Origin: Actinomycetota bacterium
GTDB taxonomy: Bacteria > Actinomycetota > Actinomycetes > Streptosporangiales > Streptosporangiaceae
Assembly (NCBI GenBank): GCA_027313705.1
Contig: DAHVDE010000026.1
Span: 1 to 64,000 of the forward strand
DNA: 64,000 bases
Reading direction: 5' to 3'
Made by a program: the position numbers and the translations under genes. Positions 8,550 through 51,433 of the stretch are shown here, piece after piece. Under the pieces are notes generated by a model that had not been told where the DNA came from, ran no database searches, and saw nothing but the letters and a program-made list of their open reading frames with translations. The stretch's first letter is position 1. Each line of letters begins with the position of its first letter.

Positions 8550-8694
8550 GGGCTGGCCTTAGTGCCTGGTCGCCTTGCCCCCGCGACGCGTCAGCGCGTC
8601 CCGCGTCCTATCCCGCGCCAGTTTCCTTAGCCGGGGCCGTCGCGGTGTCACGGGTGAAGGCCGGCACCTGCTGGTGCCCGACCAAAGGCACATC

Positions 8695-9498: not shown

Positions 9499-9512
9499 CC
9501 CGGTCTGGCTGA

Positions 9513-11747: not shown

Positions 11748-11791
11748 TCTAGCCCTTCCCGCTAGGAGATTTCTGTGAGCTTGATGGGAAA

Positions 11792-22871: not shown

Positions 22872-23056
22872 CTTCGCCTCCTTCAGATAGACCCGCCACA
22901 ACCGGTCCCTGATGACACTCGTCATCCGTCATCGTGCCGTAAGAGCACTGCTGGCGCTGGTTGATCGCCGGCGCGCCGCCTGCCCGGCTCGAATTTGGCC
23001 TGCCTGCGGGCCAGTGCGCCGGCCGTCGCCGAGGGCCAGTTGGGACTTCACTTACC

Positions 23057-24034
23057 ATGGATCACATGTCCAAGCCAACCAGGAGAGTCCTGCTTGCGAA
23101 GCCGCGCGGCTACTGCGCCGGTGTCGACCGGGCTGTCCAGACCGTGGAACAGGCACTTGAGCGGTTCGGTGCTCCTGTGTACGTCCGCAAGCAAATCGTG
23201 CATAACACGCACGTGGTCAGGACACTGGAGAAGCGCGGCGCGATCTTCGTCAACGAGACCGACGAGGTCCCGGAAGGCGCAGTGGTCGTGTTCTCCGCTC
23301 ATGGGGTCGCGCCGCAGGTGCATCAAGATGCCAGGCAGCGCAACCTGCGCAGCATCGACGCGACCTGCCCGCTGGTGACCAAGGTGCATAACGAAGCCCG
23401 CAGGTTCGCCGCGCAGGGTTATGAGATCTTGCTGATCGGCCATCAGGGTCACGAGGAAGTCATCGGCACTACCGGTGAGGCGCCCGCCAGCATCAGGCTG
23501 GTCGATGGCCTGGCGGGCGCGGCGTCAATAGAGGTCAAGGATCCGGCCAAGGTTGCGTGGTTGTCGCAGACGACGCTATCTGTCGATGAGACGAACCAGA
23601 CCGTTGCCGCCTTGCGCGAACGGCTTCCGCTGCTCCTCGATCCGCCGAGCGACGATATCTGCTACGCCACGCAGAACAGGCAGGCCGCGATCAAGCAGAT
23701 CGCCAGCGACTCTGACGTGGTCATCGTTGTCGGCTCGGCCAACTCATCGAACTCGGTGCGACTGGTCGAGGTCGCGCACGAGGCGGGCGCCAAGGCGGCT
23801 TACCTGGTTGACGACGCGAGCGCAGTTGACCCCGCCTGGCTGGAGTCGGCCACTACCGTCGGCCTCACCAGCGGTGCCTCAGTGCCTGAGAACCTGGTCG
23901 AGCAGGTCCTTGAGTTGCTTGCCGAGGCTGGTTTCAGCGCGGTCGAAGAAGTCGAGGCGGTGCACGAGAGCCTGAGTTTCGCTCTGCCGCGCGACGTGCG
24001 CAAGCGGTTAGCCGGAGTCAGCTCCGCCAGGTAG
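23057..24034 (+). CDS. ispH: 4-hydroxy-3-methylbut-2-enyl diphosphate reductase (IspH/LytB)
   Basis: This enzyme of about 325 residues performs the last step of the MEP isoprenoid pathway, reducing HMBPP to IPP and DMAPP with a [4Fe-4S] cluster. The three cluster Cys are visible in [26 protein letters not shown] and [11 protein letters not shown]. Other family signatures are [16 protein letters not shown] and [17 protein letters not shown] 23057 or 23066 could be the start ([17 protein letters not shown] is typical); the open frame to 22961 is not expected to be translated. Its 3' end overlaps the convergent rmuC gene by 27 bases. Confidence 0.97.
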
Positions 24035-25303
24035 CAGTTCAGCGGCGGTTACCACACGGGCGGAAACCTCTACCGGCTTAGCCTGCGAAAGCTCGGCGTC
24101 GGTCACGCCAAGTTGATTGAGCTTGCGCGCCGTGACGAGTACTCGGCTCTCCAGCGAGCCAACCGCGCGGTTATATGACAGCACCGCGTTGGTCAGGGCC
24201 TTGCCGACCGCGTCCACGTGCCCGCCAAGCCCGTTCAACCGCTCGTAAAGCTCCCTGCCCAGGTCGAAAACGGCCCGCGCGTTCTCCGACAACGCCGCCT
24301 GCTGCCAGGCATACTGCGCGGTGCGCAGCATCGTGACCAGAGTGGTCGGCGTCGCGATATGCACCTTGCGCCCGAAGGCGTGCTCAAGCAACGCTGACTC
24401 GCGTTCAAGCGCGGGTGCCAAGAACGCCTCGCCTGGAATGAAAAGCACCACGAACTCAGGGGCCGGGCTGAGCGCCGACCAGTAGCTCTTGGCCGCAAGC
24501 TGGTCTACGTGGTCCTTCAGGTGCCTGGCATGGGCAGCCAGCCTGGCCTCGCGCACGTCGTCGTCGGTGGCCTCCGCGGCTTCCAGGTAGGCCGCAAGCG
24601 ACACCTTGGAGTCGACGACGATGTTCTTGCCCCCGGCGAGCCTGATCACCATGTCGGGCCTGAACCGCCGGTCTTCGGTCGTGACCTGCTCGTCGAAGTC
24701 GCAGTGAGCGCTCATGCCGGCGAGCTCGACCACCCGCCGCAGTTGCATCTCGCCCCACCTCCCGCGTGCTTCCGGCCGGCGCAGAGCTGTCACCAGGGCC
24801 TGGGTCTGCATGCGGAGCTGCTCGGAAGCCGCCATCGCGAACTTGACCTGCTCGGTCAGCGCGGAATGCGCGCTCTGCCGCGCGACCTCGCTTTCGCGCA
24901 GTTGCGCCTCGACGCGGTTCAGCGTCTCCTTCAGTGGTTCGACAAGCTGCTCGACGGCGTGGCGCCGTGAATCCAGCTCGCCTGCCGCGCTCAGGTTCGC
25001 TGCCCGGAGCCGGATCTCGCTGAACTCCATGAGGCGCTGCTGACTTTGATCCAGAGCCTGCGCGGAGAGAGCCTGAAATCTTTCCGCCAGATAGCCATCG
25101 ACCAGCTCGGCACGCTCAGCGGCGGCCCGGTCAGCGAGCGCCGCCCGGTCGACCGCCGCCTGAGCGCGTTCCTGCGCCGCCCTGGCCTGCGCCGCCAGCT
25201 CGGTCGTAGTGCCAGCCAGTCGGCTACGCGCATAGAGATATCCGATAGCGATGCCGAGAACGGCTCCGACGATCAGTCCGGCAAGCAACAAGAGCGATCC
25301 CAT
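24008..25303 (-). CDS. rmuC: DNA recombination protein RmuC homologue
   Basis: A protein of about 431 residues with an N-terminal membrane anchor ([23 protein letters not shown]), then a long coiled coil rich in Ala, Glu, Arg and Gln to about residue 180. The RmuC nuclease-like core follows: [54 protein letters not shown] and [20 protein letters not shown]. RmuC limits inversion at short inverted repeats in E. coli. ATG 25303 is chosen; GTG 25321 is also possible. It is divergent from ychF with about 100 bases between them, and convergent and overlapping with ispH. Confidence 0.94.
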
Positions 25304-25402
25304 GGCGGCCAATGCTGCCACTCGCCTACGACAGTGTTAGACCCGCTCGCCGCAGGCGGACCGCGTCTCAGTCTGCCCGGGCAGCGCCATAGACTCGCGC
25401 GG

Positions 25403-26491
25403 GTGAGCCTTGAGATCGGAATCGTCGGGCTGCCTAACGTCGGCAAGTCCACCTTGTTCAACGCCCTGACCCGGGCGAGCGTGCTGGCGTCGAATTACCC
25501 GTTCGCCACGATCGAGCCCAACGTCGGGGTCGTCGGCATTCCTGATCCGAGGCTAGAGGCGCTGGCCAAACTCTATGATTCGGCGCGGATCGTGCCGGCC
25601 ACCGTCAGGTTCGTTGACATTGCTGGCCTGGTGCGGGGTGCGTCGACCGGACAGGGGCTTGGCAACCAATTCCTCGCCCACATCAGGGAAACCGACGCGA
25701 TCTGCCAAGTGGTGCGGGTATTCACCGATCCGGACGTCACCCACGTCGACGGTGACGTGTCTCCCGAACGTGACATCGAGACGATAGCGACCGAGCTTAT
25801 CCTGGCCGACTTGCAGACGCTCGATAAGGCAGTGTCCCGGCTGGCCAAGGAAGCGAAGTTCGCCAAGGATCCTGAGCGGGTGGCGGTCGCCGACGCGGCC
25901 GGCCGGGCGCAGGAGTTGCTCGATACGGGGACCACGCTCTTTGCGGGGGCCGCTGACGCTGGCATCGACCTGGCCAACCTGCGCGAGCTCCAGTTGCTGA
26001 CCGCCAAGCCGTTCCTTTACGCCTTCAACGTTGACGACGAGGAACTCGGCGATTCCGCGCTGCGCGACCGCCTTGGCAAGTTGGTTGCCCCGGCGCAGGC
26101 GGTGTATCTCGATGCCAAGGACGAGGCCGAGCTCGCCGATCTTGAGCCCGCCGAGGCGAAAGAGCTGCTGACCGAGCTGGGGCTCGGCGAACCCGGCCTG
26201 AATCAGCTCGCCAGGGCCGGCTTCGCTGCCCTCGGGCTGGCGACCTTCCTGACAGCCGGGCCGAAAGAGGCGCGGGCGTGGACGATCAAGGCCGGCGCTA
26301 CGGCGCCAGAGGCCGCCGGGGTCATCCACTCCGACTTCCAGCGCGGCTTCATCAAGGCCGAGATCGTGTCCTTCGATGACCTCATGGCCGCCGGGTCTGT
26401 CGCCGCCGCGCGAGCGGCGGGCAAGGCGCGCATCGAAGGCAAGGACTACATCATGCGCGACGGTGACGTCGTCGAGTTCCGCCATAGTTGA
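25403..26491 (+). CDS. ychF: Ribosome-associated ATPase YchF (OLA1 family)
   Basis: A 362-residue TRAFAC P-loop protein that prefers ATP: GIVGLPNVGKSTLFNALTRA (P-loop), NYPFATIEPNVGVV, VDIAGLVRGASTGQGLGNQFLAHIRETDAICQVVR (switch II region). A coiled-coil insertion follows, then the TGS domain near the end with ARAWTIKAGATAPEAAGVIHSDFQRGFIKAEIVSFDDLM and GKDYIMRDGDVVEFR. GTG 25403 fits the universal start (SLEIGIVGLPNVGKS); the frame is open far upstream only because of base composition. YchF binds ribosomes and affects stress translation. Neighbourhood with ispH and xseA is conserved in actinomycetes. Confidence 0.97.
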   Translation: MSLEIGIVGLPNVGKSTLFNALTRASVLASNYPFATIEPNVGVVGIPDPRLEALAKLYDSARIVPATVRFVDIAGLVRGASTGQGLGNQFLAHIRETDAICQVVRVFTDPDVTHVDGDVSPERDIETIATELILADLQTLDKAVSRLAKEAKFAKDPERVAVADAAGRAQELLDTGTTLFAGAADAGIDLANLRELQLLTAKPFLYAFNVDDEELGDSALRDRLGKLVAPAQAVYLDAKDEAELADLEPAEAKELLTELGLGEPGLNQLARAGFAALGLATFLTAGPKEARAWTIKAGATAPEAAGVIHSDFQRGFIKAEIVSFDDLMAAGSVAAARAAGKARIEGKDYIMRDGDVVEFRHS

Positions 26492-33922: not shown

Positions 33923-34996
33923 ATGGTGAGGGGCAATCGGGTACCGCCCGAGCCCTTGGCAATGACCGAACGAGCGGTGAGCACCGAGCAGCAGATGACG
34001 GTCGGGCGAGGAACCGGGACCGCCGGGACGACTACCGGAACCGTAGTCAGGTCAGGTGCGGAACCTGGATATGCGACAGGGCAGGACTTCGAGCAACCAA
34101 AGCGCGCCACCGGGCGTGGCGGCGGAGGGCGGTGGCTTGTCTGGATGCTGCGCGTCCTGGTTTGGGTGGTCGTGCTGCTGATCGGCTACCGCGGCGTGCT
34201 GGCGATCGTCGGAAGTTACACCGAGCCCGCCGGGGCCAGCAGTTCACCCGGGCAGGCGGCAGGCGGATTCCCCGTGCAACTCGCCGGAGCCTTCGGGCTT
34301 GAGTTCGCGCAGGTGTACCTGAACTTCAGTCCGGCCACGGCCGCGCAGCGCGCGGACGAACTCGCGCCTTTCCTGCCCGCTGGCACAACCGGCGACGCGC
34401 AGTTCGGCTGGAATGGCAGTGGCTCGCTCACCGTCTCGTCCGAGCAGCTTGCCGGGGTCGACGTCAAGAACGCGCACAGCGCCGTAGTCGACGTGCTTGC
34501 CCTGGCCAGTAATCAGATCATCGAGATCGGCGTTCCCGTCTACTATGCGGACGGCGGCATCGTGGTCTCCGGCCAGCCGGCGTTCCTTTCGCCGCCGCCC
34601 GGCCTGGTGCTGCCAGCACCGGGCAAGGCGACCGAGGACACGCAGGCTCAGCGGCAGCTCATGGTTCAGTTGCCCGCCTTCTTCCGTGCCTACTCTGGCT
34701 CTGATGTCGCGAAGATCAGCCAATTCGCGGCACCAGGTGTTAAATTGTCCGGTCTGAATGGCGAGGTCGAGTTCGGTAGCATCCTGAGCGTGACCGTGCC
34801 GGCGTCATCCGGGTCGGCCAGGCAGATCACGGTGACCGTCGCGTGGTTGCCTGCTAGCTCGCCTGCCGCGGGAGTGACGGGCGGCGGCCGGGCCCAGATC
34901 GACATGACTTACGCCATGACCGTGGTAGTGCGGGCCGGGCACTGGTATGTCAGTTCGATCGGAGCTTCGACCGCTTTGCCTGGACCGTCCTCATGA
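33923..34996 (+). CDS. TcpC-like conjugation channel protein
   Basis: A protein of about 357 residues. A polar cytoplasmic N-terminus (Thr/Gly-rich) is followed by one membrane helix (WLVWMLRVLVWVVVLLIGYRGVLAI, about residues 72-97). Then come two NTF2/VirB8-like extracellular domains: FPVQLAGAFGLEFAQVYLNFSP and LPAFFRAYSGSDVAKI open them, and ITVTVAWLP and HWYVSSIGA close the second. This architecture matches TcpC/conjugal transfer proteins of Gram-positive type IV secretion systems. The start at 33923 has AGGAGAG just upstream; the frame is open to 33713. It heads a seven-gene operon. The expected role is scaffold in the membrane, contacting VirB6- and VirB4-like partners. Confidence 0.82.
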   Translation: MVRGNRVPPEPLAMTERAVSTEQQMTVGRGTGTAGTTTGTVVRSGAEPGYATGQDFEQPKRATGRGGGGRWLVWMLRVLVWVVVLLIGYRGVLAIVGSYTEPAGASSSPGQAAGGFPVQLAGAFGLEFAQVYLNFSPATAAQRADELAPFLPAGTTGDAQFGWNGSGSLTVSSEQLAGVDVKNAHSAVVDVLALASNQIIEIGVPVYYADGGIVVSGQPAFLSPPPGLVLPAPGKATEDTQAQRQLMVQLPAFFRAYSGSDVAKISQFAAPGVKLSGLNGEVEFGSILSVTVPASSGSARQITVTVAWLPASSPAAGVTGGGRAQIDMTYAMTVVVRAGHWYVSSIGASTALPGPSS

Positions 34997-35066
34997 GCAG
35001 TACCTGGTCAGCACAGGACCTAGCGCGGGACCCCCGCAAGCCGTGCCCACTACCCCCGGAGTAAGG

Positions 35067-35321
35067 ATGTCACCGCAAATAATCGCCGCCGCATTCCCGC
35101 TGGCGCTGAGTAGCTCTGGTCTAGTGACATACCTTCAGGACCTGTTCGGGCCGCTGTTCCTGGGCATTGTCGGAATCGTTGCGATCTTCTTCCTGTTCAC
35201 CCGCGAGATCATCCGGTTTGTGCAATTCTTCGTGCTGGCGGTGGCGATCGCGGTCATTTTCTACGAGCCGACCATAGTTCGCTCGCTTGCAGTGGGCATC
35301 GCTCATGCGCTCGGAGTCTAG
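35067..35321 (+). CDS. Small membrane protein of the conjugation operon (TcpD-like)
   Basis: An 84-residue protein with two or three hydrophobic segments: FPLALSSSGLVTYL, FLGIVGIVAIFFLF and FVQFFVLAVAIAVIFYEP. Only a few charged residues are present (TREIIRFV between helices 2 and 3). ATG 35067 has GGAG five bases upstream. Size, topology and position between the TcpC- and TcpE-like genes fit the small TcpD/pilin-like inner-membrane component of such systems. Homology itself cannot be proven by eye. Confidence 0.72.
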   Translation: MSPQIIAAAFPLALSSSGLVTYLQDLFGPLFLGIVGIVAIFFLFTREIIRFVQFFVLAVAIAVIFYEPTIVRSLAVGIAHALGV

Positions 35322-35395
35322 GAAACTCATGGCGCTGAGTGCTATTTCCCGGCGTCCGGCATTCACGACTAGTTAGCGGAGGGGAGTGCGAGCAG

Positions 35396-37513
35396 GTGGA
35401 TTTGCCCACCTACACCAGTATCTGGCGGATTGAGAAGCGGCTTTACAAGCTATATGACTTCCGGCTGCCCATGCCGCTGCCAGTTGGTCAGATCACGGTG
35501 TTCGCGGCTATCGCCATCCCTTACGTGGTGCTGCTCACGCTGCTCGGCATCCCGTTGAGTCACACCCTTATCTGGCTTTACCTGCTCCCGCCTGGCGTCG
35601 CCACCTGGCTGGTGACCAGGCCGGTGCTCGAGGGCAAGCGACTGCCCGAGCTGGTCGGTTCTCAGCTGCGCTATTACCTGGCCGAACCTCGGGTCTGGTG
35701 CCGGATGGCCCCATCCTCAGAGAGCGACGTTACGGTGGTAAGCGCTAAAGTGTGGCGGCTGTCTCCTGACGTGCTGGCCCAGTTGAGCAGCCAGGTCGTC
35801 AGGCGCCGCGCGAGCCGCGCGGAAGTGATGCCGACTCTCAGGCGCAGGTCCGCGCTGCTGCTGGTAGGCGATCCCAGGTCGGAGTCAGCATCGTCAAAGT
35901 CATCGTCGTCAAAGTCATCGTCGTCAAAGTCAGCCTCTCCGCGCGGAGCAGAGCGGGAAGCTCAGGATTCGGCGGTATTGCGTCAGGAAGTGCGGCGACC
36001 TTTGACACCGCGCCGGGAGACACCGCGCCAGGAGACACCGCGCCAGGAGACACCGCACCAGGAGGCACGGCGCTCGGAAGTTCCGCCTGTGGCCTCGGCC
36101 GCGCCGCGGCAGGAACGGCAGCCAGAAGGCGGGCAGCCGGCGCCGGCACGTACCGGGATAAGGCTGCGCGGACGCGGCGCGGCGGCTGGCTTCGGCCTGC
36201 CGGCCGGCCAGCCGGTGCCCACCGGGCAGCCGGCACCGCCGGCTCAGGCTGGCAGCCGGCCGGAGAGGCTTACCGCCGACCGGCCGCCAGCCCCGGCAAT
36301 GTCGCTGCTGCCTGGTCGGCCAAGGGCGATCGACAGGCCGGCCGGTCAGGGCCGGCCGGCTCCGCTTGGGCGGCCGCTTCGCTCACCCACCGCCCCTCCG
36401 GCCAGAACGCCTGTGCCGCCCGCGCCTGTGTCTCCTGCGGCTGCCGCGCCTGTGTCTCCTGCGGTGCAGGCTGCGGTGCAGGCCGTGCCTGAGCCTGCGG
36501 TGCAGGCCGTGCCTGAGCCTGCCGAGGCCGGCTCGCGGACGAGCGTGACCGTGGTTAGCCCGGCCGCGAACCGTGGTGTGCCGCTTCCTGTTGAGCGCGC
36601 CCTGGCCGACCCTTCGGCCAGGCGCAATGACGGCCGTACTGGCCGGGTTAGCGTCGTGCCGGGCGGGCACCGGCCAGGCAAGCCCGACCAGCTTCAGCGC
36701 GACAGGGTTCGTGCGCAGCTTCCGCTCAAGGGTCATCGCAGCGTGATAGTGCTCGGCTGCACGGTCGGTGCAGGCCAGACCATAACGGCGCTGCTGACCA
36801 GTGAGGTGCTCGCCAGCTTGCGATCTGATTCGGTCGCCGTGCTTGACCTCAATCCAGCCGCCGAGTCGCTCGCCGAGCGTGCGCTCGTGCGGCCCGCGCT
36901 CGGCCAGGCAGCCTCGCTCGCGTCTTCACGCCTGAAGGTGCTCAGCGCTCCGCCTTTCCCTGGCGGCGGCATCGACCCCGCTGCCGCCGCGACTGCTTTC
37001 GAGCAGGCCCGCAGCGGACATCAGATCCTGATCGCCGACCCGGCCACGGTCGCGGTGCCCAGACTGCTGCCCGCCGCCGATCAGCTGATCCTCGTTGCGC
37101 CGGCCAGTTCGGCCGCCTCCCATGCGATCAGCATGACCTTCGAGTGGCTAGAAGCGCACGGCGAGGCCGACCTGGCCGCCGGGGCGATCATGGTCATGAA
37201 CGGGGTGAGCCGCCCTAGCCTGGCCCATGTCGAGCAGGCAGAACGCGTGTGCATCGGCCGCTGCCGCGCCATAGTCCGCATCCCGTGGGATGACCAGCTT
37301 CAAAATCTCTCCTCGGCCAGAAGGCCCGTGGCAGCGCAAGGGCAGCATTCGTCCGCGCACCAATGGGCGGGAGTGCTCAGCCCTGGCACCGTCAGCGCAT
37401 GCACCGCGCTTGCCGGGGTGCTCGTCGCCGCGCTTGCCGGTCCAGAGCCTGACCAGTCACCGGACCAGGCCGGTGATCCGGCTACCTCCGCGATCGGACA
37501 GGCGGCCAGATGA
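35396..37513 (+). CDS. TcpE-like membrane protein fused to a degenerate MinD/ParA-like domain
   Basis: A protein of about 705 residues. The N-terminal 130 residues resemble TcpE/PrgI-type proteins: SIWRIEKRLYKLYDFRLPMP, two membrane helices (VFAAIAIPYVVLLTLLGIPL and TLIWLYLLPPGVATWLV). A repeat-rich disordered middle follows (about residues 150-430, Ser/Lys, Arg-Gln-Glu-Thr-Pro and Pro/Ala repeats). The C-terminal 250 residues have a MinD/ParA-like Rossmann pattern: SVIVLGCTVGAGQT at the P-loop position (454-462), AVLDLNPAAESLAERAL, HQILIADPATVAVPRLLPAADQLILV and AGAIMVMNGVSR. The loop lacks the Lys of a true Walker A, so ATP hydrolysis is doubtful. GTG 35396 follows GGAGGGGAG. The stop overlaps the VirB4-like gene. 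Confidence 0.78.
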   Translation: MDLPTYTSIWRIEKRLYKLYDFRLPMPLPVGQITVFAAIAIPYVVLLTLLGIPLSHTLIWLYLLPPGVATWLVTRPVLEGKRLPELVGSQLRYYLAEPRVWCRMAPSSESDVTVVSAKVWRLSPDVLAQLSSQVVRRRASRAEVMPTLRRRSALLLVGDPRSESASSKSSSSKSSSSKSASPRGAEREAQDSAVLRQEVRRPLTPRRETPRQETPRQETPHQEARRSEVPPVASAAPRQERQPEGGQPAPARTGIRLRGRGAAAGFGLPAGQPVPTGQPAPPAQAGSRPERLTADRPPAPAMSLLPGRPRAIDRPAGQGRPAPLGRPLRSPTAPPARTPVPPAPVSPAAAAPVSPAVQAAVQAVPEPAVQAVPEPAEAGSRTSVTVVSPAANRGVPLPVERALADPSARRNDGRTGRVSVVPGGHRPGKPDQLQRDRVRAQLPLKGHRSVIVLGCTVGAGQTITALLTSEVLASLRSDSVAVLDLNPAAESLAERALVRPALGQAASLASSRLKVLSAPPFPGGGIDPAAAATAFEQARSGHQILIADPATVAVPRLLPAADQLILVAPASSAASHAISMTFEWLEAHGEADLAAGAIMVMNGVSRPSLAHVEQAERVCIGRCRAIVRIPWDDQLQNLSSARRPVAAQGQHSSAHQWAGVLSPGTVSACTALAGVLVAALAGPEPDQSPDQAGDPATSAIGQAAR
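35888..36065 (+). repeat. In-frame 15-bp tandem repeats within the TcpE-like gene
   Basis: Two separate arrays keep the reading frame. The first, about 35888-35935, is three copies of TCGTCAAAGTCATCG encoding SSKSS units. The second, 36006-36065, is four copies of CACCGCGCCAGGAGA-like sequence encoding RQETP units. Both lie in the disordered linker. Copy number probably varies between strains. Confidence 0.85.
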
Positions 37514-40131
37514 TGCGGTCCACGGCGCGTAACCGGCTTTCCGTCAGGTACTTCGATGACCGGATCTTGCTGACCGAGACGCACGCCTGGGCCTACTTCC
37601 GGGTACCGACCATCTCCTACGAGTTCCTGACCGGCATCCAGCGTGAGGCCCTGGCTACCAACCTGACGGTCGCCATGGCCGGGATCAGGATGGCCGACGC
37701 CGAAGTCCACCTGCGGATCGCGCATCGAAGCTACCCGGCCGCGCAGTGGGCGACCGGATTGCATGTAACCTCCGACGGCGGCCCTGGCTGGCTGCCTTAC
37801 CTGGATGAGATGTACCGGCAGGTCTGGGCAAAGGATTTTTGGACCAAGGAGGTCTACCTCGGCGTCAGGCTCGGCCAGCGGGGGGTCAGGGCGCAGCTTG
37901 CCGGCGGGGCGCTCGCTTCGATCGTGAACACCTACCGCGCAGGCGAGCAGGTGCTCGGCATCGAGGATCCGGCCGTGGCGCCCGCGGAGATCGTGCGGTG
38001 GACGGAGCAGGCAGAACGGGTCGGCAGGACCCTTGGAGCCAGTTCGCTGGCGGCCAGGCACGCGAGTGCCGACGACGTGGCCTGGTTGTTCCGCCACGCG
38101 CTTACCGCCGGGCTCGGTGACCCTCCGCCGACCGCCGTACGGAAACGGAAGTGGGGTTTCGGCGAGATCGAGTCGCTGGTGGAAGGCGAGGTCCACAACG
38201 GCCGGTCCGTTCTGCGCATCGTCCATCCGGCCGGCGAATCGTGTGTGGCCTTTCTTTCCTTTACCAGATTCCCCGACGTGATGTACTTCCCTGAAGGAGA
38301 ACCCTGGCTGCATTACGCCGACTCGCTGCCTTTCCCCGTCGAAGCGAGCCTGCGGATGAAGCTCATACCTCCCGCCAAGGCGAGCAAGGACGTCAGCCGC
38401 AGGCTGGCGCACGCCAGGGACATGGATGCCCACATCAGGGAGGCGGGCGCCGACCTGCCGATAGCTCTCGCCGAGCAGATCGAGGCGGCCAGGCTGCTTG
38501 AGCACGGCATCACCAAGGAGCGGCTGCCCTTCGTTTACGGGTGGCACCGGCTGGCGGTCACCGCACCGGACCGTGAGCTTTGCCTGCGGCGGGCCGATGC
38601 GGTGACAGAGCATTACCGCGACATAGGCATCGATGTCGTGAACTCGACCGGCGACCAGTTCTCGCTGCTCTGCGAGTCGTTGCCTGGCGACAAGGTGAGG
38701 CTCAACTCCTACCTGCAAAGGCAACCGCTCTACACGATCGCTGGCGGCATGCCGACGGCCACCGTTGATCTCGGCGACCGGCCCACCGATGAGGCCGGCT
38801 GGGTCGGGCCTTACATAGGCGAGACGATCGGCAGGGCCAGGTCGGTCGTGCACTTTGACCCGCTGGTCGCGGCCGCGCGTAACCGGCCGACGGCGGTGGC
38901 CATCACTGGCGAGCCAGGCGGCGGCAAGACGACCCTGGCACTCCTGCTCATACTCCAGCTCGCCTTGCGTGGCGTGACGGTAGCCGTCATTGACCCCAAG
39001 GGCGATGCCGAGTCGCTGGTCAGGCTGCTCGCGCACCGGGGCAGACGGGCGCGGGTGCTGCCGCTCGGCAGTGCGGCTGCGGGCTTGCTCGACCCGTTCT
39101 CTTTCGGCGATGACCTGGCTGAGCGCCGCACCATGGCCGCTGAAACGCTGAGGCTGCTGCTGCCAGGCATGAGCGAGGAGCGCGAGAGCGCGATGATCCA
39201 GGCGGTCGGCGCGGTTTCTGCCGCTGACCGGCCGAGCCTTGGCAAAGTCGTCGAGCATCTGGAGGCGGCGGCGGATCCGGCGTCGAAGAATCTGGGCGCG
39301 GTGCTCAGGTCGATGTCGGAAATGCGCTTGGCGAGGCTTTGCTTCTCGCCGTCAGGCGGCGACCAGATCGACGCGGAAGGCTGGACCACCGTGTTCACGC
39401 TCGGCGGCCTGACCTTGCCCGAGTCTGGTCTGAAGCGGGATGACTACTCCTACGAGCAGCGGCTGTCTGTCGCCCTGCTTTACCTGGTGTCGCAGTTCGC
39501 CAGGCGCCTGCTTAACGACATGGACAGGCGGATACCCAAGGCGATCGTGCTCGACGAGGCATGGGCGGTGACATCGACGCCTCAGGGCGCGAAACTCATC
39601 CCTGAGGTGTCGAGGATGGGCCGGTCAAGGAATACCGCACTGATCCTCGTCTCACAAAATGCGAGTGACTTGCTCAACGAGCAGGTGACCAACTGCATCT
39701 CCGCCGTCTTCGCGTTCAGGTCAACCGAGCGAGCCGAGGTCGCCAGCGTGATGTCGCTGCTCGGGGTCGATCTTTCCGACGAGCACGCGGCGGCGTTGCG
39801 CAGCCTCGGCAACGGCGAGTGCATCTTCCGCGACCTTGATGGCCGGGCTGGCCGGATCATGGTCGACCTGATCTCCGACGAGCTGCGGCGCTGGCTCGAC
39901 ACGAACCCGACCAGGGCCAGATCGGGTGACTCACCCCTGCCGTCCGATCAGGTCCGCCAAGCGAGCGAGCCGGCCGGCAACGGCCATCCGCCAGGCCGGA
40001 TGCCCGGCCGTGGCTTCCCTGCGGTCAGCTCAGAGCAAGCCTGGGTGCGTCCCACTGCGGGACCTATGCACACAGGTTCGGCTCAGGCGAACCCGACGCA
40101 GACACCTTCCCAGTTAGCCCGCGCCGACTGA
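37510..40131 (+). CDS. VirB4-like conjugation ATPase
   Basis: This 873-residue AAA+ ATPase energises the type IV secretion channel. The N-terminal 400 residues are the VirB4 docking domain (RYFDDRILLTETHAWAYFRVP, then VYLGVRLGQRG). The C-terminal motor has AITGEPGGGKTTLALLLILQ (Walker A, about residues 465-480), AVIDPKGDAESLVRLL, KAIVLDEAWAVTSTPQGA (Walker B, D682/E683), SRMGRSRNTALILVSQNASDL and ISAVFAFRSTERAEVA. A Pro-rich tail of about 60 residues follows. The start overlaps the TcpE-like stop by four bases. It lacks membrane helices, so it is cytoplasmic and held by partners. Confidence 0.88.
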   Translation: MMRSTARNRLSVRYFDDRILLTETHAWAYFRVPTISYEFLTGIQREALATNLTVAMAGIRMADAEVHLRIAHRSYPAAQWATGLHVTSDGGPGWLPYLDEMYRQVWAKDFWTKEVYLGVRLGQRGVRAQLAGGALASIVNTYRAGEQVLGIEDPAVAPAEIVRWTEQAERVGRTLGASSLAARHASADDVAWLFRHALTAGLGDPPPTAVRKRKWGFGEIESLVEGEVHNGRSVLRIVHPAGESCVAFLSFTRFPDVMYFPEGEPWLHYADSLPFPVEASLRMKLIPPAKASKDVSRRLAHARDMDAHIREAGADLPIALAEQIEAARLLEHGITKERLPFVYGWHRLAVTAPDRELCLRRADAVTEHYRDIGIDVVNSTGDQFSLLCESLPGDKVRLNSYLQRQPLYTIAGGMPTATVDLGDRPTDEAGWVGPYIGETIGRARSVVHFDPLVAAARNRPTAVAITGEPGGGKTTLALLLILQLALRGVTVAVIDPKGDAESLVRLLAHRGRRARVLPLGSAAAGLLDPFSFGDDLAERRTMAAETLRLLLPGMSEERESAMIQAVGAVSAADRPSLGKVVEHLEAAADPASKNLGAVLRSMSEMRLARLCFSPSGGDQIDAEGWTTVFTLGGLTLPESGLKRDDYSYEQRLSVALLYLVSQFARRLLNDMDRRIPKAIVLDEAWAVTSTPQGAKLIPEVSRMGRSRNTALILVSQNASDLLNEQVTNCISAVFAFRSTERAEVASVMSLLGVDLSDEHAAALRSLGNGECIFRDLDGRAGRIMVDLISDELRRWLDTNPTRARSGDSPLPSDQVRQASEPAGNGHPPGRMPGRGFPAVSSEQAWVRPTAGPMHTGSAQANPTQTPSQLARAD

Positions 40132-40151
40132 TACCCCCCAGGAGCCATCCG

Positions 40152-42701
40152 ATGCTCAAAGTCCCGCGGCTGGCCCGCAAGACCGCTGTCGCGTTGATCG
40201 CCCTCATCGCGCTGAGTTGCGTGCCGCACAGTTCAGGCGCGCCTGCCGCCGCGTACGCGAGCGGCAGGCGGCCCGCGTCCATCGAGGCGACGACGGTGGC
40301 CAAGGTGACTCCGGCCGCCCCTTCCTCGGGCGGCGGCATCTGCTCGGTGCCGGGCATCGGCGACATCGGCGGGTTGCTCGGCTTCTGCTCGCTCGGAAAG
40401 TCGGGCATCACCGGCGCGCTGAACAATCTGTGCGAGCCTGGAGTGCCAGAACCCGAGTCGACTACGGCAGGTATCGATTCGCTGGTCGAGCCGCCCGCCA
40501 CCACAGGCAAGCCGATCGCCACTCCTTATAACGAGTACGGAATGGCCGGCCAGTACTGGGCCGCTACCGACCTGCAGTGCTCCGACATGACCTCGCTCAT
40601 CGGCAACGACGTGGCGGGGATGATCTTTGACTTCGCCAAGGCATTTGACCGGGTCACTATCACCGTCTACCAGGCTTCGGCCAGCAACGGCATACTCAAC
40701 TGGCTGCAGAGCGTCACCGACCGCCTAGTGAGCGGGATCGGCAACGCGATCTACTTTCCTTACGTCGCGCTCGTCGTGATCATCGGCGCGATCTGGCTTG
40801 CCTGGCAGGGCCTGGTGCGCAAACGAGCCAGCCGTACCATAGAAGGCACTATCTGGATGGTCGTGGCTTGCGCGGCCGCACTCTGGCTGATCGGCAAGCC
40901 GGCCGACTTCACTGGCATAGGCACCGGTGTGTCCGATGGCATCAGCACGGCGCTCAACACCGCGTTCGCGCATCTGCCCACGCCAGGTGCAGCAACCTGC
41001 CTGCCGGTGACTTCGAGCGATCCGCAGATCAGCCCGACTAGTTTTGCATATACGTCCGGCCGTACCGTGGTCGATCAGAATGCCAACGAGCTTTGGACCG
41101 TCCTGGTATGCAAGCCCTGGCTGGAAGGCGAGTTCGGCACGACGACGTACGGAGCGCAAGGCCAGCCGGCCAACGTCGTGAACAGGTACGGCAGGTCGCT
41201 GCTCTGGGCTCAGGCCATCGCCGCCAACGAGACGCCGACCGCCTCGCTCATCAGCGCCAAACAGGCGGCTTACGTGGGCATCGCCCAGACCATGCAGCAC
41301 TCAGATCCCTCGACGTTTGCCCTGTTCCAGGGCAAACAGTGGACTACGAGGCTGGAAATAGCCTTCGCCGCCCTGCTGGCCGCGCTCATTGCCGGGGTGC
41401 TGATCTTGCTCATCTCGGTGACATTGATCCTGCTCAAGATCGGGTTCTTGCTCCTGCTGATCGTCGGGCCGTTTTTCCTGCTGGTTGGCACCCATCCAGG
41501 ATTCGGGCGCGTCATCGCGGTGCGCTGGTTCGAGTTGCTCGTCGGCGTGCTGCTCAAGCAGGCAGCGGTAGCGCTCGCGCTGAGCGTGCTGCTCTACTGC
41601 TACGCACTGATCATGGGCACTCCTGATCAGGTGCTCGGGTGGGGACTGAAGATTCTCATGATCACGCTGGTAACGGTGGCCGTGTTTATCTACCGCAAGC
41701 CGTTCCAGCACCTGTTCGCTGCCGTCGGCTACGGTGCCATCGGTTCGACCGACCGGGCGCAGACCGACCTGACGCTGGCCGGGGCAACCGCGCGAGCCAA
41801 CACCGCAAGCGCCGTGTCGCTGGCCGTGCCTGGCCTGGCCGCTTACCGTGCCGCCAGGTGGGCGAGGAACAACCCGGCTCAGGCGGCGGGCATCGCCGCC
41901 GGATCGGCCGGCGTGGCAAGCAGCGCCGGCGTCACTTCAGCCGGCGGAGATGGTGGCATGGCCGGCGGTGACACCGTTGTCGTCGCCGGGGCTGGAGGTG
42001 GTTCCGATCCGGTCGCGGCAGGCGCCGCGGCTCAGGCAAGTTCCGCTTCGAGGGCCAGGGCGCGCGGTGGTTCCGCGGGTGGCTCGGCGGGCAACCAGGC
42101 GCCGCCGCTTCGCCTGCCTGGGACCGCTAGCTCGTCAGCCGGATGGGCAGGCGGTGGCTCGGTCGCCTCGGGCGGCGGGACTGGCGGAGGTAACCGGGCT
42201 GGCAATGCCCCGCCGGCGCGGCTAAGCGGGCCGGCGTCAGGCTCATCGGCGCCCGCGCTGCCGCTAGGGAGCGGCACCGGCCGCCCGGCCGGCTCAGGCT
42301 CGGGTTCTGGCGGGAACGGCGCTGCCCAGGCGTCTTCAGGCGGAGCATCGCCCTGGGCAGGTGGTGACGCCGCCAGGGTGCAGCGAGCCGCACCGCGGCC
42401 GCCCGCGCAAAGACCCGCCACGTCTTCCCGCCAGGCGCCAGCACCGCCCAGGTCGGCGCCACCCCAGAGCCAGTCAGCCCGCCCGTCGCGCGGCGGTACA
42501 TCAGGATCGCTTTCATCGCGGCGGCGGCTGCCTAGAGGTGGCGCGGAGTCGGCAAGCAGCGGTGGCAGCGGGGCTTCAGGGGACTCCGGCGGCGTAATGC
42601 CAGGCAGGCAAGGACCCTTCAGCCAGCCGCCGGGTCCTGGCGACGGCCCTGACAGCCAGCGGCCGCCGTTCTGGCTGCGGCCGTTCGGACGGAGAAAGTA
42701 G
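40152..42701 (+). CDS. VirB6/TrbL-like polytopic conjugation protein
   Basis: An 849-residue protein. It starts with a signal-like helix (TAVALIALIALSCVPHSSGA), then a Cys-containing extracellular part (GGICSVPGIGDIGGLLGFCSL, LQCSDMTSL). Membrane helices follow: YFPYVALVVIIGAIWLAWQG (about 200-220), IWMVVACAAALWLIGKP, a long pair LLAALIAGVLILLISVTLILL and GFLLLLIVGPFFLLVG (about 400-450), KQAAVALALSVLLYCYALIMG, and ILMITLVTVAVFIYR. About 290 residues of Gly/Ser/Ala/Pro-rich tail end the protein. This is the layout of the large multi-pass channel subunit. CAGGAG sits seven bases before the ATG. Its place directly after the VirB4 gene supports the role. Confidence 0.8.
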   Translation: MLKVPRLARKTAVALIALIALSCVPHSSGAPAAAYASGRRPASIEATTVAKVTPAAPSSGGGICSVPGIGDIGGLLGFCSLGKSGITGALNNLCEPGVPEPESTTAGIDSLVEPPATTGKPIATPYNEYGMAGQYWAATDLQCSDMTSLIGNDVAGMIFDFAKAFDRVTITVYQASASNGILNWLQSVTDRLVSGIGNAIYFPYVALVVIIGAIWLAWQGLVRKRASRTIEGTIWMVVACAAALWLIGKPADFTGIGTGVSDGISTALNTAFAHLPTPGAATCLPVTSSDPQISPTSFAYTSGRTVVDQNANELWTVLVCKPWLEGEFGTTTYGAQGQPANVVNRYGRSLLWAQAIAANETPTASLISAKQAAYVGIAQTMQHSDPSTFALFQGKQWTTRLEIAFAALLAALIAGVLILLISVTLILLKIGFLLLLIVGPFFLLVGTHPGFGRVIAVRWFELLVGVLLKQAAVALALSVLLYCYALIMGTPDQVLGWGLKILMITLVTVAVFIYRKPFQHLFAAVGYGAIGSTDRAQTDLTLAGATARANTASAVSLAVPGLAAYRAARWARNNPAQAAGIAAGSAGVASSAGVTSAGGDGGMAGGDTVVVAGAGGGSDPVAAGAAAQASSASRARARGGSAGGSAGNQAPPLRLPGTASSSAGWAGGGSVASGGGTGGGNRAGNAPPARLSGPASGSSAPALPLGSGTGRPAGSGSGSGGNGAAQASSGGASPWAGGDAARVQRAAPRPPAQRPATSSRQAPAPPRSAPPQSQSARPSRGGTSGSLSSRRRLPRGGAESASSGGSGASGDSGGVMPGRQGPFSQPPGPGDGPDSQRPPFWLRPFGRRK

Positions 42702-42709
42702 CCGATGCT

Positions 42710-43366
42710 ATGGAACTCACGCCAGCTCAGCGGATTATCACCTTCGCGATTGTGGTCTTCTTGCTGGCCGGGATCGGGGTCTACCTGTTCCTGCCCGAAC
42801 CCGGCGGCGCCGTGACGGCAGGCAGCGGCAGCCAGGCGAGCCCGGCGGCGGGCGGCCAGCCATCGGCCCACAGGACCGGCCGGGCCGCGCCTTCGCCCGT
42901 TCCTTCCTCGCCTGCTACCGAGTCGCCTGGGCCGGGCAAGGCGCCTGACATCTACAACTGGCTGCCGTTCACGCAGTCAGAACTGGCCAGCGCGGCGCAG
43001 GTCACCGTAAAGTTCGCGGCCGACTACGGCACGTACTCCTACCGGCAGGACACCAGCAGTTACCTGGCTCCGATGAAGCCGATCATCACCGGCCAGCTCG
43101 CCGAGCTGATCGGGCGGGCATACGCGACTCCTGGCGTGGTGTCGAGCAGGGATGCGGCCAAGCAGGTAAGCGTCGGCTCGGGAACGATCACCTCGCTGCG
43201 TGCCTTCGGGTCATCGAGCCTTACCTTCGTCGTGGCGCTGACGGAGAAGCTCACGACCACCAAGGGCACGACCGACCAGGCCGCGAACTACGCGATCACA
43301 GTGACCGGCAGCGGGTCGAGCTGGCAGGTCAGCAACATCGAGTTCGCCCTGGCCGGCAATCAGTGA
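42710..43366 (+). CDS. Single-pass membrane protein of the conjugation operon (VirB8/TcpC-C-like fold possible)
   Basis: A 218-residue protein: an N-terminal anchor (IITFAIVVFLLAGIGVYLFL), a 55-residue Ser/Pro/Gly linker, and an extracellular domain of about 130 residues. That domain opens YNWLPFTQSELASAAQVTVKFAADYGTYSY and closes TTKGTTDQAANYAITVTGSGSSWQVSNIEF. The helix followed by curved strands ending in a W-containing strand resembles the NTF2-like domain of VirB8/TcpC, as in the first operon gene. The next gene starts within its stop codon (GTGA). I do not recognise a named family beyond that. Confidence 0.72.
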   Translation: MELTPAQRIITFAIVVFLLAGIGVYLFLPEPGGAVTAGSGSQASPAAGGQPSAHRTGRAAPSPVPSSPATESPGPGKAPDIYNWLPFTQSELASAAQVTVKFAADYGTYSYRQDTSSYLAPMKPIITGQLAELIGRAYATPGVVSSRDAAKQVSVGSGTITSLRAFGSSSLTFVVALTEKLTTTKGTTDQAANYAITVTGSGSSWQVSNIEFALAGNQ

Positions 43367-44478
43367 TCAGGTTCTCTGGCAGTCTGCTCAAGCCGTTCCT
43401 GTTCGGCGCGGCGGCCGTGATGGCCTTGCTGCTCGTCGGCGTGCTAGCCGCCCCGATGCTGTTGTTCTCGGCCGGCGGGCTGCTCTACTCGACTGGCAAC
43501 GCTTGTGCCTCGGCGGGGAACGGCAACGCGAACCAGCCGCCGCCGAGCACGACGGCGGAGAACTCCATCCCGGCCAACTATCTCTTCTGGTTCAAGCGCG
43601 TGGGCGCGCAGTACCACGTGCCCTGGGTAATCCTGGCCGGCATCGCCAAGGTGGAGAGCGACGACGGCCAGACCACGCTGCCAGGCGTGCACAGCGGCGC
43701 CAACCCGTTCGGCGCGGCCGGGCCGATGCAGATCGGCATCGGCGGTGCCGCAGGCAACAACTGGGGCGGCGCCCCAGTGCACCCGGCCAGCGAGAAAGTG
43801 AACGGGGTCGCGACCGACGAGAACGGCGATGGCGTGGCCAGCGTGTATGAGCCGGCCGACGCGATCGCGGGAACCGCGAAGTACCTCTTGGCGAACGGCG
43901 TACTCGACAACGTGCCGAACGCGATTTTCGCCTACAACCACCTGCAGTCCTACGTGCAGTCGGTGCTCGGCTGGGCCTCGACCTACGCCAAGGGCGGCTA
44001 CACGGTCAGCCCTGTCACGCTCGACAACGCGCCGACCTGCATCCCAGGAGTCGGGCTGGCGACCAGCAACGCGGCGGCTACCGCCATCGCCTTCGCCGAA
44101 GCTCAGCTAGGCAAGCCTTACCAGTGGGGCGGCGTCGGCCCCGATGCCTACGACTGCTCTGGCCTGGTCATGATGGCCTACCGAGCGGCGGGCGTCTACA
44201 TACCACGCACATCGCAGCAGCAGTGGACCTGGGGACCCAGGGTGCCTGCGAATCAGGTAGAACCCGGTGACCTGGTGTTCTTCGTCGGCGGTGACGGCAC
44301 TTCCAAGGCGCCTGGCCACGTCGGCATCGTGATAGGCAACGGCCTGATGATCGAGTCACCCGCACCAGGCCTCGCCGTCAGGGTCACCCCATACACCGAC
44401 CGAGACCCTATCGGCTTCACCCGCCCGTGGACCCATGCTGGTGTCAGCAAGTCAGCCGGCCAGGCATTCGGTGCGTGA
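43363..44478 (+). CDS. Conjugation cell-wall hydrolase: lytic transglycosylase plus NlpC/P60
   Basis: A 371-residue protein. The N-terminal helix (LFGAAAVMALLLVGVLAAPMLLF) anchors it. Residues 65-200 are a lysozyme-like transglycosylase: YHVPWVILAGIAKVESDDG (catalytic Glu) and GPMQIGIGG, with a helix carrying FAYNHLQSYVQ. Residues 235-350 are an NlpC/P60 endopeptidase: GKPYQWGGVGPDAYDCSGLVMMAY (catalytic Cys), GHVGIVIGNG (His) and a further polar residue. Two-domain hydrolases like this (VirB1/TcpG type) open the wall for the channel. The start GTG overlaps the preceding stop. It is the last gene of the operon. Confidence 0.92.
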   Translation: MIRFSGSLLKPFLFGAAAVMALLLVGVLAAPMLLFSAGGLLYSTGNACASAGNGNANQPPPSTTAENSIPANYLFWFKRVGAQYHVPWVILAGIAKVESDDGQTTLPGVHSGANPFGAAGPMQIGIGGAAGNNWGGAPVHPASEKVNGVATDENGDGVASVYEPADAIAGTAKYLLANGVLDNVPNAIFAYNHLQSYVQSVLGWASTYAKGGYTVSPVTLDNAPTCIPGVGLATSNAAATAIAFAEAQLGKPYQWGGVGPDAYDCSGLVMMAYRAAGVYIPRTSQQQWTWGPRVPANQVEPGDLVFFVGGDGTSKAPGHVGIVIGNGLMIESPAPGLAVRVTPYTDRDPIGFTRPWTHAGVSKSAGQAFGA

Positions 44479-50929: not shown

Positions 50930-51433
50930 GTGCATCCGCGCGAAGGGGACCCGCAGCGAGCGGGGGAACTGCTCAGGCGACTCGGCTATACCCTCGCGAC
51001 GGCTGAGTCGCTGACCGGCGGCACGGTCGGTGCCCTGATTACTTCGGTACCCGGGGCGTCAGACTACTACCGCGGCGGCGTCATCGCCTACGCGGCAGCC
51101 GTCAAGTCCTCGCTGCTCAACGTCGATGCCGCGGTAATCGCCGCGCATGGCACGGTCAGTGAGGAAACCGCGATCGCGATGGCGACCGGTGTCCAGAACC
51201 TGCTTGGCACGTCGGTGGCGGTAGCCACCACCGGCGCGGCCGGACCTGACCCGCTCGAAGGGCACCCGCCTGGCACGGTATTCGTGGCCGTCGCCGATCC
51301 ATTCGCCAGCCGCGCAGAACTGCACACGATGGCAAGCCCGTCAAGCCGGGCGGCCGTGGTCACCTGGGCCGCCGCGCGCGCCGTCGGACTGCTGACCCGC
51401 CGCCTCGGGGAACTCTCCGCCGATCAGATCTGA
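50930..51433 (+). CDS. pncC: Nicotinamide-nucleotide amidase (CinA C-terminal domain, PncC)
   Basis: A 167-residue protein that deamidates NMN to nicotinic acid mononucleotide in NAD recycling: LGYTLATAESLTGGTVGALITSVPGASDYYRGGVIAYA (nucleophile and phosphate region), KSSLLNVDAAVIAAHGTVSEETAIAMATGVQ, VAVATTGAAGPDPLEGHPPGTVFVAVA. The CinA N-terminal half is absent, as usual in this group. GTG 50930 starts 11 bases after the preceding stop. Its end lies in a 30-bp palindrome shared with the convergent kinase gene, overlapping it by ten bases. Confidence 0.95.
   Translation: MHPREGDPQRAGELLRRLGYTLATAESLTGGTVGALITSVPGASDYYRGGVIAYAAAVKSSLLNVDAAVIAAHGTVSEETAIAMATGVQNLLGTSVAVATTGAAGPDPLEGHPPGTVFVAVADPFASRAELHTMASPSSRAAVVTWAAARAVGLLTRRLGELSADQI

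Follow-up and report, generated by a model that had tools for sequence, protein, structure and literature searches.

A chromosomal, probably domesticated type IV secretion operon of Streptosporangiaceae with a predicted MinD/ParA-like domain fused to TcpE

Nearly all functions known for Gram-positive type IV secretion systems (T4SSs) amount to DNA translocation, with effector roles being a long-standing question, and the systems lacking VirD4 that are treated in the accessible parts of a 2025 review are Gram-negative (PMC12857230). Few T4SSs or T4CPs were found in actinobacteria, going by the accessible text of an earlier survey (PMC3158045). In Streptomyces, deletion of cmd impairs sporulation and chromosome segregation and leaves the transfer of an SLP2-derived plasmid unchanged; the Cmd ATPase is homologous to VirB4-like proteins, and the Cmd authors report that mutating the paralogs SCO6878 and SCO6881 causes no such defect (PMC2782261, in its accessible portions). 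The Tcp/MPF_FA conjugation systems (pCW3 tcp, ICEBs1, Tn916 and plasmids of Bacillus and Niallia) are the closest known class to the operon that we analyze here, which lies at 33923-44478 of a 64,000-nucleotide stretch of DNA (hereafter, the window) and of which we found no description in the accessible text of the open-access literature searched.

The operon and its mobile relatives

The operon consists of seven ORFs, all present and in the same direction in an ORF check of the window, that encode VirB8 (TcpC), a TcpD-like protein, VirB3 (TcpE), VirB4, VirB6, a second VirB8-like protein and a VirB1-like wall hydrolase. This gene set is a Gram-positive core T4SS without VirD4 or relaxase:

33923..34996, + strand: TcpC, VirB8-like (Pfam PF12642, 7.3e-13, above cut-off)
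35067..35321, + strand: TcpD-like small membrane protein (likely start ATG 35067; longest ORF from 34947)
35396..37513, + strand: VirB3/TcpE with a long linker and a C-terminal, predicted MinD/ParA-like domain (Pfam PF12648, 7.5e-21; likely start GTG 35396, longest ORF from 35339)
37510..40131, + strand: VirB4/TcpF-type ATPase (Pfam AAA_10, 7.5e-65; NCBIfam NF052333, 3.3e-70, under the curated cut-off)
40152..42701, + strand: VirB6/TrbL-like polytopic membrane protein (Pfam PF04610, 1.3e-6; NF046089, 1.6e-17, under the curated cut-off)
42710..43366, + strand: second VirB8-like protein (gene 6), one TM segment and a predicted NTF2-like fold (AlphaFold2 pLDDT 84.1)
43363..44478, + strand: VirB1-like wall hydrolase, SLT-like and NlpC/P60, one TM segment (PF00877, 4.6e-24)

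The co-directional ORFs and the Pfam matches of TcpC, TcpE, VirB4, VirB6 and the NlpC/P60 domain, among them the profile matches that the original prediction had proposed to seek for the first three, bear out its seven-gene T4SS-like operon. The VirB8 (TcpC), VirB3 (TcpE), VirB6 and VirB1 hydrolase components of an MPF_FA/Tcp-type T4SS are all found. TcpC displays one N-terminal TM segment predicted from hydropathy and may start further downstream (e.g., ATG 33962). TcpD has no Pfam match; its counterpart by position on a Niallia plasmid aligns with it over 48 aa at 46% identity (1.4e-6). As first listed from its longest ORF, TcpD overlaps TcpC by 50 bases; for most of its homologs, the alignment does not begin before about residue 41-57 of that ORF (for a few, at residue 13-34), and the alignments of TcpE relatives begin at residue 20 of the long TcpE ORF (residue 8 in one exception, locus L094). 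At the sequence level, later starts are suggested at 35067 for TcpD and 35396 for TcpE, which would leave gaps of 70 and 74 bases.

VirB4 retains both Walker motifs, with GEPGGGKT (A) at residue 467 and IVLDEA (B) at residue 679. Its nearest NCBIfam model is the conjugal ATPase TcpF (NF052333, as against 5.4e-12 for VirB4_CagE), and its assignment to the TcpF/ConE branch derives from the profile scores and the Niallia match rather than from a full VirB4 reference tree; against PDB sequences, it has two matches, one to a VirB4-like chain (1.4e-5) and the other to a HerA-like chain. VirB6, with six hydrophobic segments and a long, low-complexity C-terminus, is nearest to the CD3337/EF1877 model. 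Gene 6 has no Pfam match, and its AlphaFold2 model resembles VirB8/NTF2 structures, with 3ub1_D (Z 13.0, 2.8 Å over 112), 7sh3_B (Z 12.9) and 7aed_A PrgL (Z 12.5, 2.8 Å over 117) tied at the top of VIA-align and a best Foldseek value of 1.6e-4 (query TM 0.38), in line with the earlier description of it as a single-pass NTF2-like protein. The hydrolase displays the motifs KVES, YDCSG and PGHVGI, which we take to be catalytic, and an SLT_2 match of 22.7 bits, under the cut-off of 24.3. Scans of the operon returned no promoter (1.0 expected) and three terminator-like sites (4.8 expected). The pN/pS ratios are 0.18-0.27 for VirB4 and 0.48-0.68 for TcpC, TcpE and gene 6, which are fairly fast evolving.

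The order TcpC-TcpD-TcpE-VirB4-VirB6-(gene 6 position)-hydrolase is also that of the Bacillus and Niallia plasmids, and the VirB4 of the latter aligns with that of the window over 855 aa (2e-102, 30%). Unlike the window operon, these plasmids feature a coupling ATPase and a replication-relaxation (Replic_Relax) gene directly upstream, as well as an extra gene of about 147 aa between VirB4 and VirB6. Two further differences from the Tcp/MPF_FA systems are the fusion of TcpE to a predicted MinD-like pseudo-ATPase and the presence of the operon as a family-wide chromosomal gene set rather than on a mobile element. Closer in sequence are two Nocardiopsis plasmids (NZ_CP099838 and NZ_CP080600), whose VirB4 is 67-69% identical to that of the window and which encode blastp-detectable homologs of seven and six, respectively, of eight segments, each along with an annotated SLT-domain protein. 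Their gene order is rearranged, their MinD/ParA is a separate gene with an intact Walker A (KGGVGKT), and a MobF relaxase and VirD4 are found on the same plasmid. A free tree, with very long branches leading to its outgroup rows, places the plasmid copies inside the chromosomal clade (100/99), and the alternative, in which the chromosomal rows form one group with the plasmid copies as its sister, withstands the AU test (p 0.166). Given this identity and nesting, the machine could have been exchanged with mobile elements and may have kept its competence for DNA transfer.

The C-terminal domain of TcpE

The original call of this protein as TcpE-like stands for the part covered by the Pfam match, but it had overlooked about 250 C-terminal residues that are predicted to form a MinD/ParA-like domain:

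36719..37513, + strand: predicted MinD/ParA-fold pseudo-ATPase domain of TcpE (AlphaFold2 pLDDT 83.6, pTM 0.83; top Foldseek match FlhG/ParA, 1.5e-7)

Matches of this domain to PDB sequences are few and weak (five, the best at 0.0083); its MinD/ParA fold is recognized from the structural model. The deviant Walker A KGGxGKT with its catalytic lysine is absent; the corresponding motif is GCTVGAGQT, with a glutamine (36776-36778) where the lysine is expected, and all 21 chromosomal rows show GAGQ[T/S] here. In a profile alignment, the count on which we rely, glutamine replaces the Walker lysine in 78 of the 78 copies read among 80 examined (the best 80 of 285); the two unread are L149 and L166, the latter on a contig that begins 594 bases before virB4. 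Two sequence patterns read 77 and 73 of the 80, all with glutamine, and a third, looser one gave glutamine alone in 69, glutamine plus a glutamate hit in one, leucine in one and nothing in nine, the leucine and glutamate hits being taken as chance matches. This fusion of TcpE to a MinD/ParA-fold domain with a lysine-to-glutamine exchange in the Walker motif is new, and we predict from the motif that the domain is probably incapable of nucleotide hydrolysis. That it and the plasmid MinD represent one gene split in two is unsupported: the plasmid MinD reaches 51% with other chromosomal MinD genes, compared with 28-37% for the TcpE domains, and its tie to the plasmid T4SS may therefore be separate.

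Distribution, neighborhood and the missing transfer genes

VirB4 was recovered in all 49 distinct same-family genomes sampled, that of the window included, at 71-85% identity to the window copy. Two surveys underlie this figure (25 of 25 and 28 of 28 same-family genomes); in the second, only 12 of 268 other genomes had a match, at no more than 37% identity, where the exclusion of same-family genomes from 236 unlisted misses is judged from row order. All eight tested segments are present in 16 of 20 relatives, with three others clipped by contig ends and no MinD domain detected in L047. In a scan of named genomes, limited to the best 80 of 285 confirmed stretches, all eight were found in 29 of the 80 loci, many of which are on short contigs. 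Three genes upstream of the operon serve as markers common to relatives:

22961..24034, + strand: LytB/IspH (PF02401, 2.9e-95)
24008..25321, - strand: RmuC (PF02646, 3.9e-98)
25394..26488 (match coordinates), + strand: YchF GTPase (2.7e-163 and 72% identity to that of L175; family name assigned via another member of its cluster)

Both rmuC and ychF lie upstream in 31 of the 37 loci with enough sequence, 26 of these 37 being from Actinomadura; the neighborhood is missing in L114, L119, L125, L145, L157 and L184. An IMG/VR scan gave 13 pattern matches, with no relative among them. The earlier view of the operon as chromosomal and perhaps domesticated is well supported, with domestication now probable, by a VirB4 in every same-family genome sampled, by a mostly shared neighborhood in the kind of synteny comparison that it had proposed, and by the lack at the locus of the relaxase and coupling genes of its mobile relatives, such genes being patchy in the family.

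No coupling protein (TcpA/VirD4/DUF87) was found in the seven genes or in 29 selected flanking ORFs of the window, and neither was an integrase or relaxase in the latter, five of which lack any family match. In these ORFs, the original prediction of a locus free of all three holds, as does the absence of the integrative element that it had named as its own refutation. Its proposed genome-wide search had a divided outcome: TrwC has no match in the genome, whereas VirD4-like and Replic_Relax genes are paired on two other contigs, C44 and C78, to which Replic_Relax is confined, and a partial T4SS-DNA_transf match is seen on C56. The element on C44 carries its own VirB4 and hydrolase; the window hydrolase is closer to the latter, at 42%, than to its Niallia counterpart, at 31%.

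One alternative is that the operon is a still-working DNA conjugation channel kept on the chromosome. It might be used in trans by plasmids or integrated elements that supply a relaxase and coupling protein themselves, or for interhyphal chromosome transfer. This would fit the preserved VirB4 and hydrolase motifs, the MobF and VirD4 of the closely related Nocardiopsis machines, and the relaxase or VirD4 types present in many of 17 genomes surveyed from the family. However, the C44 element has no need to borrow a channel, and the presence of such genes does not track the operon: G003 (77% complete), G004, G005 and G013 matched no relaxase or VirD4 type. The congener G004 (96% complete) keeps the operon with no match to any coupling or relaxase query used, FtsK being its sole PF01580 match, and G005 and G013 have several PF01580 matches beyond FtsK. 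A diverged coupling protein, or a relaxase of the MobA/MobL, MOB_P, MOB_V or Rep_trans families rather than of the TrwC and Replic_Relax types searched, could exist. Family-wide conservation also exceeds what would be predicted for a helper of parasites, and we accord this channel a low probability.

A machine for DNA uptake in the manner of Helicobacter ComB is quite improbable. It would share the same subunit logic, with VirB4 as the only intact motor and no VirD4, as described for ComB in the accessible text of PMC12857230. The window further encodes CinA (50930-51433). CinA is a common gene, and no competence machinery apart from it was found in the 29 flanking ORFs. The gene order of the Bacillus and Niallia transfer modules might suggest that an ICE or plasmid of the ordinary sort has integrated here, which we regard as very improbable in view of the 29 flanking ORFs, with no relaxase, coupling gene or integrase among them, and the neighborhood kept in those 31 loci. 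A decaying ICE remnant, for which the absence of relaxase, coupling and integrase genes from those flanking ORFs could speak, is in the main refuted by an operon intact across the family, with a constrained VirB4 and a mostly kept neighborhood.

Predicted role and comparison with known systems

We favor, at a probability of roughly 70%, a T4SS of the Tcp (MPF_FA-like, firmicute/actinobacterial) class that has been domesticated on the chromosome, serves its host without VirD4 and is analogous, not orthologous, to Streptomyces Cmd. The mostly conserved neighborhood, the absence from the operon of genes for choosing and delivering DNA, and the ParA-like domain without its key residue point to what is probably a host job of an undescribed kind. 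In such a machine, VirB6, TcpE and TcpD would build the channel in the membrane, both VirB8 proteins would span the wall zone, the hydrolase would open peptidoglycan, and VirB4 would be the power source. The MinD-like domain on its long linker might be a fixed module for docking or positioning and stand in, perhaps, for the coupling protein. By analogy with Cmd, the machine would work for the host cell rather than for plasmid spread, most likely by exporting or positioning a host protein or complex during envelope or aerial development. More tentatively, and as a possibility that we would not yet call probable, the family core might include a VirD4-less Gram-positive nanomachine, in which a dead MinD/ParA on VirB3 replaces the coupling protein as a receptor or positioning module for a host protein exported or positioned in development.

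A T4SS without an adjacent coupling gene in every sampled family member makes the effector question testable in cultivable strains, and the pseudo-ParA of VirB3, whose ParA counterpart beside related plasmid machines looks active, offers a handle on how a T4SS might work without a coupling protein. If the more tentative reading is true, the nanomachine would be a second T4SS domesticated independently, beside Cmd. A common cellular need would be suggested if actinomycetes maintain two different T4SS branches in the form of chromosomal operons.

Like the window operon, cmdABCDEF (SCO4126-4131) is a chromosomal membrane operon with a VirB4-like ATPase, its role being non-conjugative by the accessible text of PMC2782261. 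It differs in a VirB4 apparently split over two genes, as judged from the SCO6880-family profile, in the weakly VirD4-like CmdA (TraG-D_C, 6.6e-4, under cut-off) and in that no hydrolase is seen in its six genes. We identify a Streptomyces-type locus (L210) as cmd by its gene order, its SCO6880-family match and the CmdB Walker lysine at residue 90, the K90 of the accessible part of PMC2782261. Orthology was rejected: the window VirB4 matches CmdB at only 5.6e-4, the window TcpC and TcpE have no match, and neither has CmdC. The SCO6880 family was not found among the 7 of 20 first-look candidates scored in the genome of the window. The MOBless T4SSs of Guglielmini et al. 2011 (PMC3158045, accessible text) are likewise chromosomal, with VirB4 and without relaxase, and differ from the window cluster, from which the coupling gene is missing too. 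Bordetella Ptl, Brucella VirB and Helicobacter ComB share with it a cluster of channel genes without a coupling protein; these are diderm systems, whereas that of the window is a monoderm one with a predicted pseudo-ParA.

Subunits of the operon

As originally predicted, the window carries a seven-gene T4SS-like operon, in which all genes are encoded in the same direction and family matches assign most of the subunits:

33923-44478, seven co-directional genes: TcpC, TcpD-like, TcpE, VirB4, VirB6, second VirB8-like protein, SLT/NlpC-P60 hydrolase

In the unified nomenclature, this set corresponds to VirB1, B3, B4, B6, B8 and B8 (TcpC = VirB8, TcpE = VirB3, with a VirB1-like hydrolase). VirB4 retains both Walker A (with Lys473) and B, and the hydrolase retains catalytic-type motifs, which we take to be the catalytic ones. 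Gene 6 has no Pfam match; its AlphaFold2 model (pLDDT 84) features a single N-terminal helix and an NTF2-like domain. Against known structures, its top ranks are T4SS VirB8-type chains, most tied within about 1 Z, namely 3ub1_D ('NTF2-like protein involved in plasmid conjugation', Z 13.0), 7sh3_B (Z 12.9), PrgL of pCF10 (Z 12.5) and TraH of pIP501 (Z 11.9), with the remaining NTF2-fold proteins ranking lower, near Z 9-10. Judged from this model, the gene 6 product is a second VirB8-like protein. On profile and BLAST ranks, the operon is putatively of the MPF_FA type. Among the six signature subunits named for most Gram-positive mobile elements in the part of a review consulted here (PMC12857230), VirD4 is the sole absentee.

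The MinD/ParA-like domain of TcpE

The TcpE-like gene is present as predicted, but its C-terminal domain had been overlooked: about 250 residues, placed on a long linker, adopt a MinD/ParA fold in the structural model (pLDDT 83.6, pTM 0.83) and recover FlhG first in Foldseek (1.5e-7), then ParA, HypB and MinD entries. The TcpE ORF ranges from 644 to 1706 aa across relatives; where both its N- and C-terminal domains were detected (42 loci), 39 loci carry them in a single ORF and three in separate ORFs. At its end, the Walker A-like motif reads GAGQ[T/S], with Gln replacing the catalytic Lys in 21/21 aligned chromosomal rows; this Gln is found in all 78 TcpE copies read by profile (80 named loci examined). 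By sequence, the domain is a conserved pseudo-ATPase, which has presumably lost its activity.

We propose that VirB6, TcpE and TcpD would form a membrane channel driven by VirB4, with two VirB8 assemblies occupying the wall zone and the hydrolase making an opening in the peptidoglycan. The dead MinD-like domain might bind a partner without cycling, either as a stand-in for the coupling protein or as an anchor for the complex. Our best guess for the operon's job is protein export or positioning in the course of envelope or aerial development.

Conservation and chromosomal setting

A protein search recovered VirB4 in all 25 same-family genomes (own genome included), in the one genome from a second family of the order, in 0/3 of a third family and in 1/12 from the rest of the class (28-31%). 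When the class was sampled evenly, VirB4 was present in 28/28 same-family genomes at no less than 71% and in 12/268 others at 37% or below, the absence of same-family genomes among the unlisted misses being read from the sorting of rows. These two sets share four genomes and thus cover 49 distinct same-family genomes. A scan of named genomes confirmed 285 stretches, the best 80 of which, our named loci, include Actinomadura, Nonomuraea, Thermomonospora, Trebonia, Spirillospora and Sphaerimonospora, as well as numerous MAGs, some of them placed in Microbispora and Nocardiopsis. A Nonomuraea gerenzanensis record, NZ_LT559118 (L094; 11.85 Mb), is listed as a plasmid by PLSDB; judged by its size, it is the chromosome.

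All eight tested segments are present in 16/20 relatives; three of the incomplete ones (L040, L042, L054) end at contig edges, and L047 lacks a detected MinD domain. Of the 80 named loci, a good number of them short contigs, 29 likewise have all eight. By script, gene order matches the window in 25 of these 29; four were flagged owing to overlapping extended ORF starts and were read as collinear. Several named loci (L112, L115, L116, L118, L128, L130 and L131 among them) are contigs of ~5 kb in which virB4 is preceded by about 1 kb and followed by at most 2 kb; perhaps these assemblies were broken by the low-complexity linkers of TcpE and VirB6. Compared with four relatives, VirB4 shows a pN/pS of 0.18-0.27, with TcpC and gene 6 being less constrained (0.60-0.68).

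The flanks, predicted to be ordinary chromosomal genes, proved so for the 29 tested flanking ORFs (5 matched no family); they feature fumarases, glpX, xseA, ispH, rmuC, prolyl oligopeptidase, ABC transporters, acyl-CoA dehydrogenase, wall amidases and cinA. Three upstream genes serve as neighbourhood markers:

22961-26488, upstream of the operon: ispH, rmuC, ychF

About 7 kb of further genes separate ychF from the operon in the window. Across 37 loci having >1.5 kb before tcpC, a sample skewed to Actinomadura (26; Nonomuraea 4, Spirillospora 1, others 6), synteny in related genomes is borne out by rmuC and ychF upstream in 31, DUF6542 in 21 and ispH in 19; none of these four markers lies upstream in L114, L119, L125, L145, L157 and L184 (6/37).

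Coupling genes, mobile relatives and Cmd

The original prediction saw no relaxase or VirD4-type gene; none adjoins the operon in the 29 flanking ORFs, but elsewhere in the genome contigs C44 and C78 each encode a VirD4-like and Replic_Relax pair, and C56 has a partial T4SS-DNA_transf match. The C44 pair belongs to a second T4SS element:

G000:C44:84001-97134, 6037-13067, minus strand, at contig end: VirB4, VirD4-like, Replic_Relax, SLT/NlpC (locus L060)

As it has its own VirB4 (nearest family CD1110) and hydrolase, this element is distinct from the operon. In the 17 family genomes that these searches share, Replic_Relax occurs in 6, TrwC above cut-off in 5 (one weak), T4SS-DNA_transf in 6 and a DUF87-type coupling gene in 4; C44-type VirD4 occurs in 4/19. 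Four family genomes (G003, 77% complete; G004; G005; G013) have no match for any of these five types. Given this patchy occurrence, none of the five tracks the operon. FtsK is the only PF01580 match in G004 (96% complete); G005 and G013 have 6 and 12, so TcpA-like proteins could still be present there.

Outside the family, the nearest of the full modules examined lie on plasmids of Niallia and Bacillus; these modules start with a DUF87 coupling ATPase, a replication-relaxation protein and a small gene and continue TcpC-TcpD-TcpE-VirB4-(about 147 aa)-VirB6-(about 210 aa)-hydrolase. With database size set by hand, window proteins match Niallia at 2e-102 (VirB4), 1.6e-31 (hydrolase), 1.6e-10 (TcpE), 1.4e-6 (TcpD), 2e-6 (TcpC), 2.6e-5 (VirB6) and merely 0.17 (gene 6); the window hydrolase is closer to that of the C44 element (4.5e-61). 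Although the Niallia and Bacillus subtilis plasmids (L191, L192) carry the DUF87 ATPase, Replic_Relax and a full T4SS, they are typed non-mobilizable; the typing likely misses their Replic_Relax-type relaxase.

A closer T4SS copy (VirB4 67-69%) is found in rearranged gene order on Nocardiopsis plasmids, where MinD/ParA is a separate gene with an intact KGGVGKT. Unlike the chromosomal operon, these plasmids encode a MobF relaxase and VirD4, located apart from the T4SS genes (TrwC 5.7e-48 and T4SS-DNA_transf 1.2e-15 on the N. exhalans plasmid). In a VirB4 tree (43 rows, midpoint-rooted, with long outgroup branches), the family clade has 98/98 support and the plasmids nest inside it, but the test does not reject a clade of chromosomal copies alone (p 0.166). 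NZ_CP099838 and NZ_CP080600 combine MobF, VirD4 and T4SS, yet MOB-suite types them as 'non-mobilizable'; they are probably conjugative.

In the portion of PMC2782261 consulted, cmdABCDEF is a chromosomal Streptomyces operon with an ATPase homologous to VirB4-like proteins; deletion of the operon delays sporulation and disturbs chromosome segregation, leaves SLP2-derived plasmid transfer unaltered (data not shown there), and is not mirrored by such a defect in mutants of the paralogues SCO6878 and SCO6881. In a cmd-type locus of a Streptomyces-like genome (L210, 7742-12357), the CmdB Walker Lys lies at 90, as in the same portion of that study, and CmdB and CmdC look like one VirB4 divided in two. 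CmdA there has a weak TraG-D_C match below cut-off (6.6e-4) and is perhaps a degenerate VirD4. Orthology of the operon with Cmd is rejected: the window VirB4 matches CmdB at 5.6e-4, and the remaining Cmd proteins are unmatched. In the class sample, with 7 candidates scored per genome, the SCO6880 family (CmdC type) scores 173-193 bits in 15 Streptomyces-like-family genomes among the matches listed and 480-575 bits in 5/16 window-family genomes, with none in the own genome. It thus seems that two actinomycete groups have each come to keep a different T4SS branch as a fixture of the chromosome.
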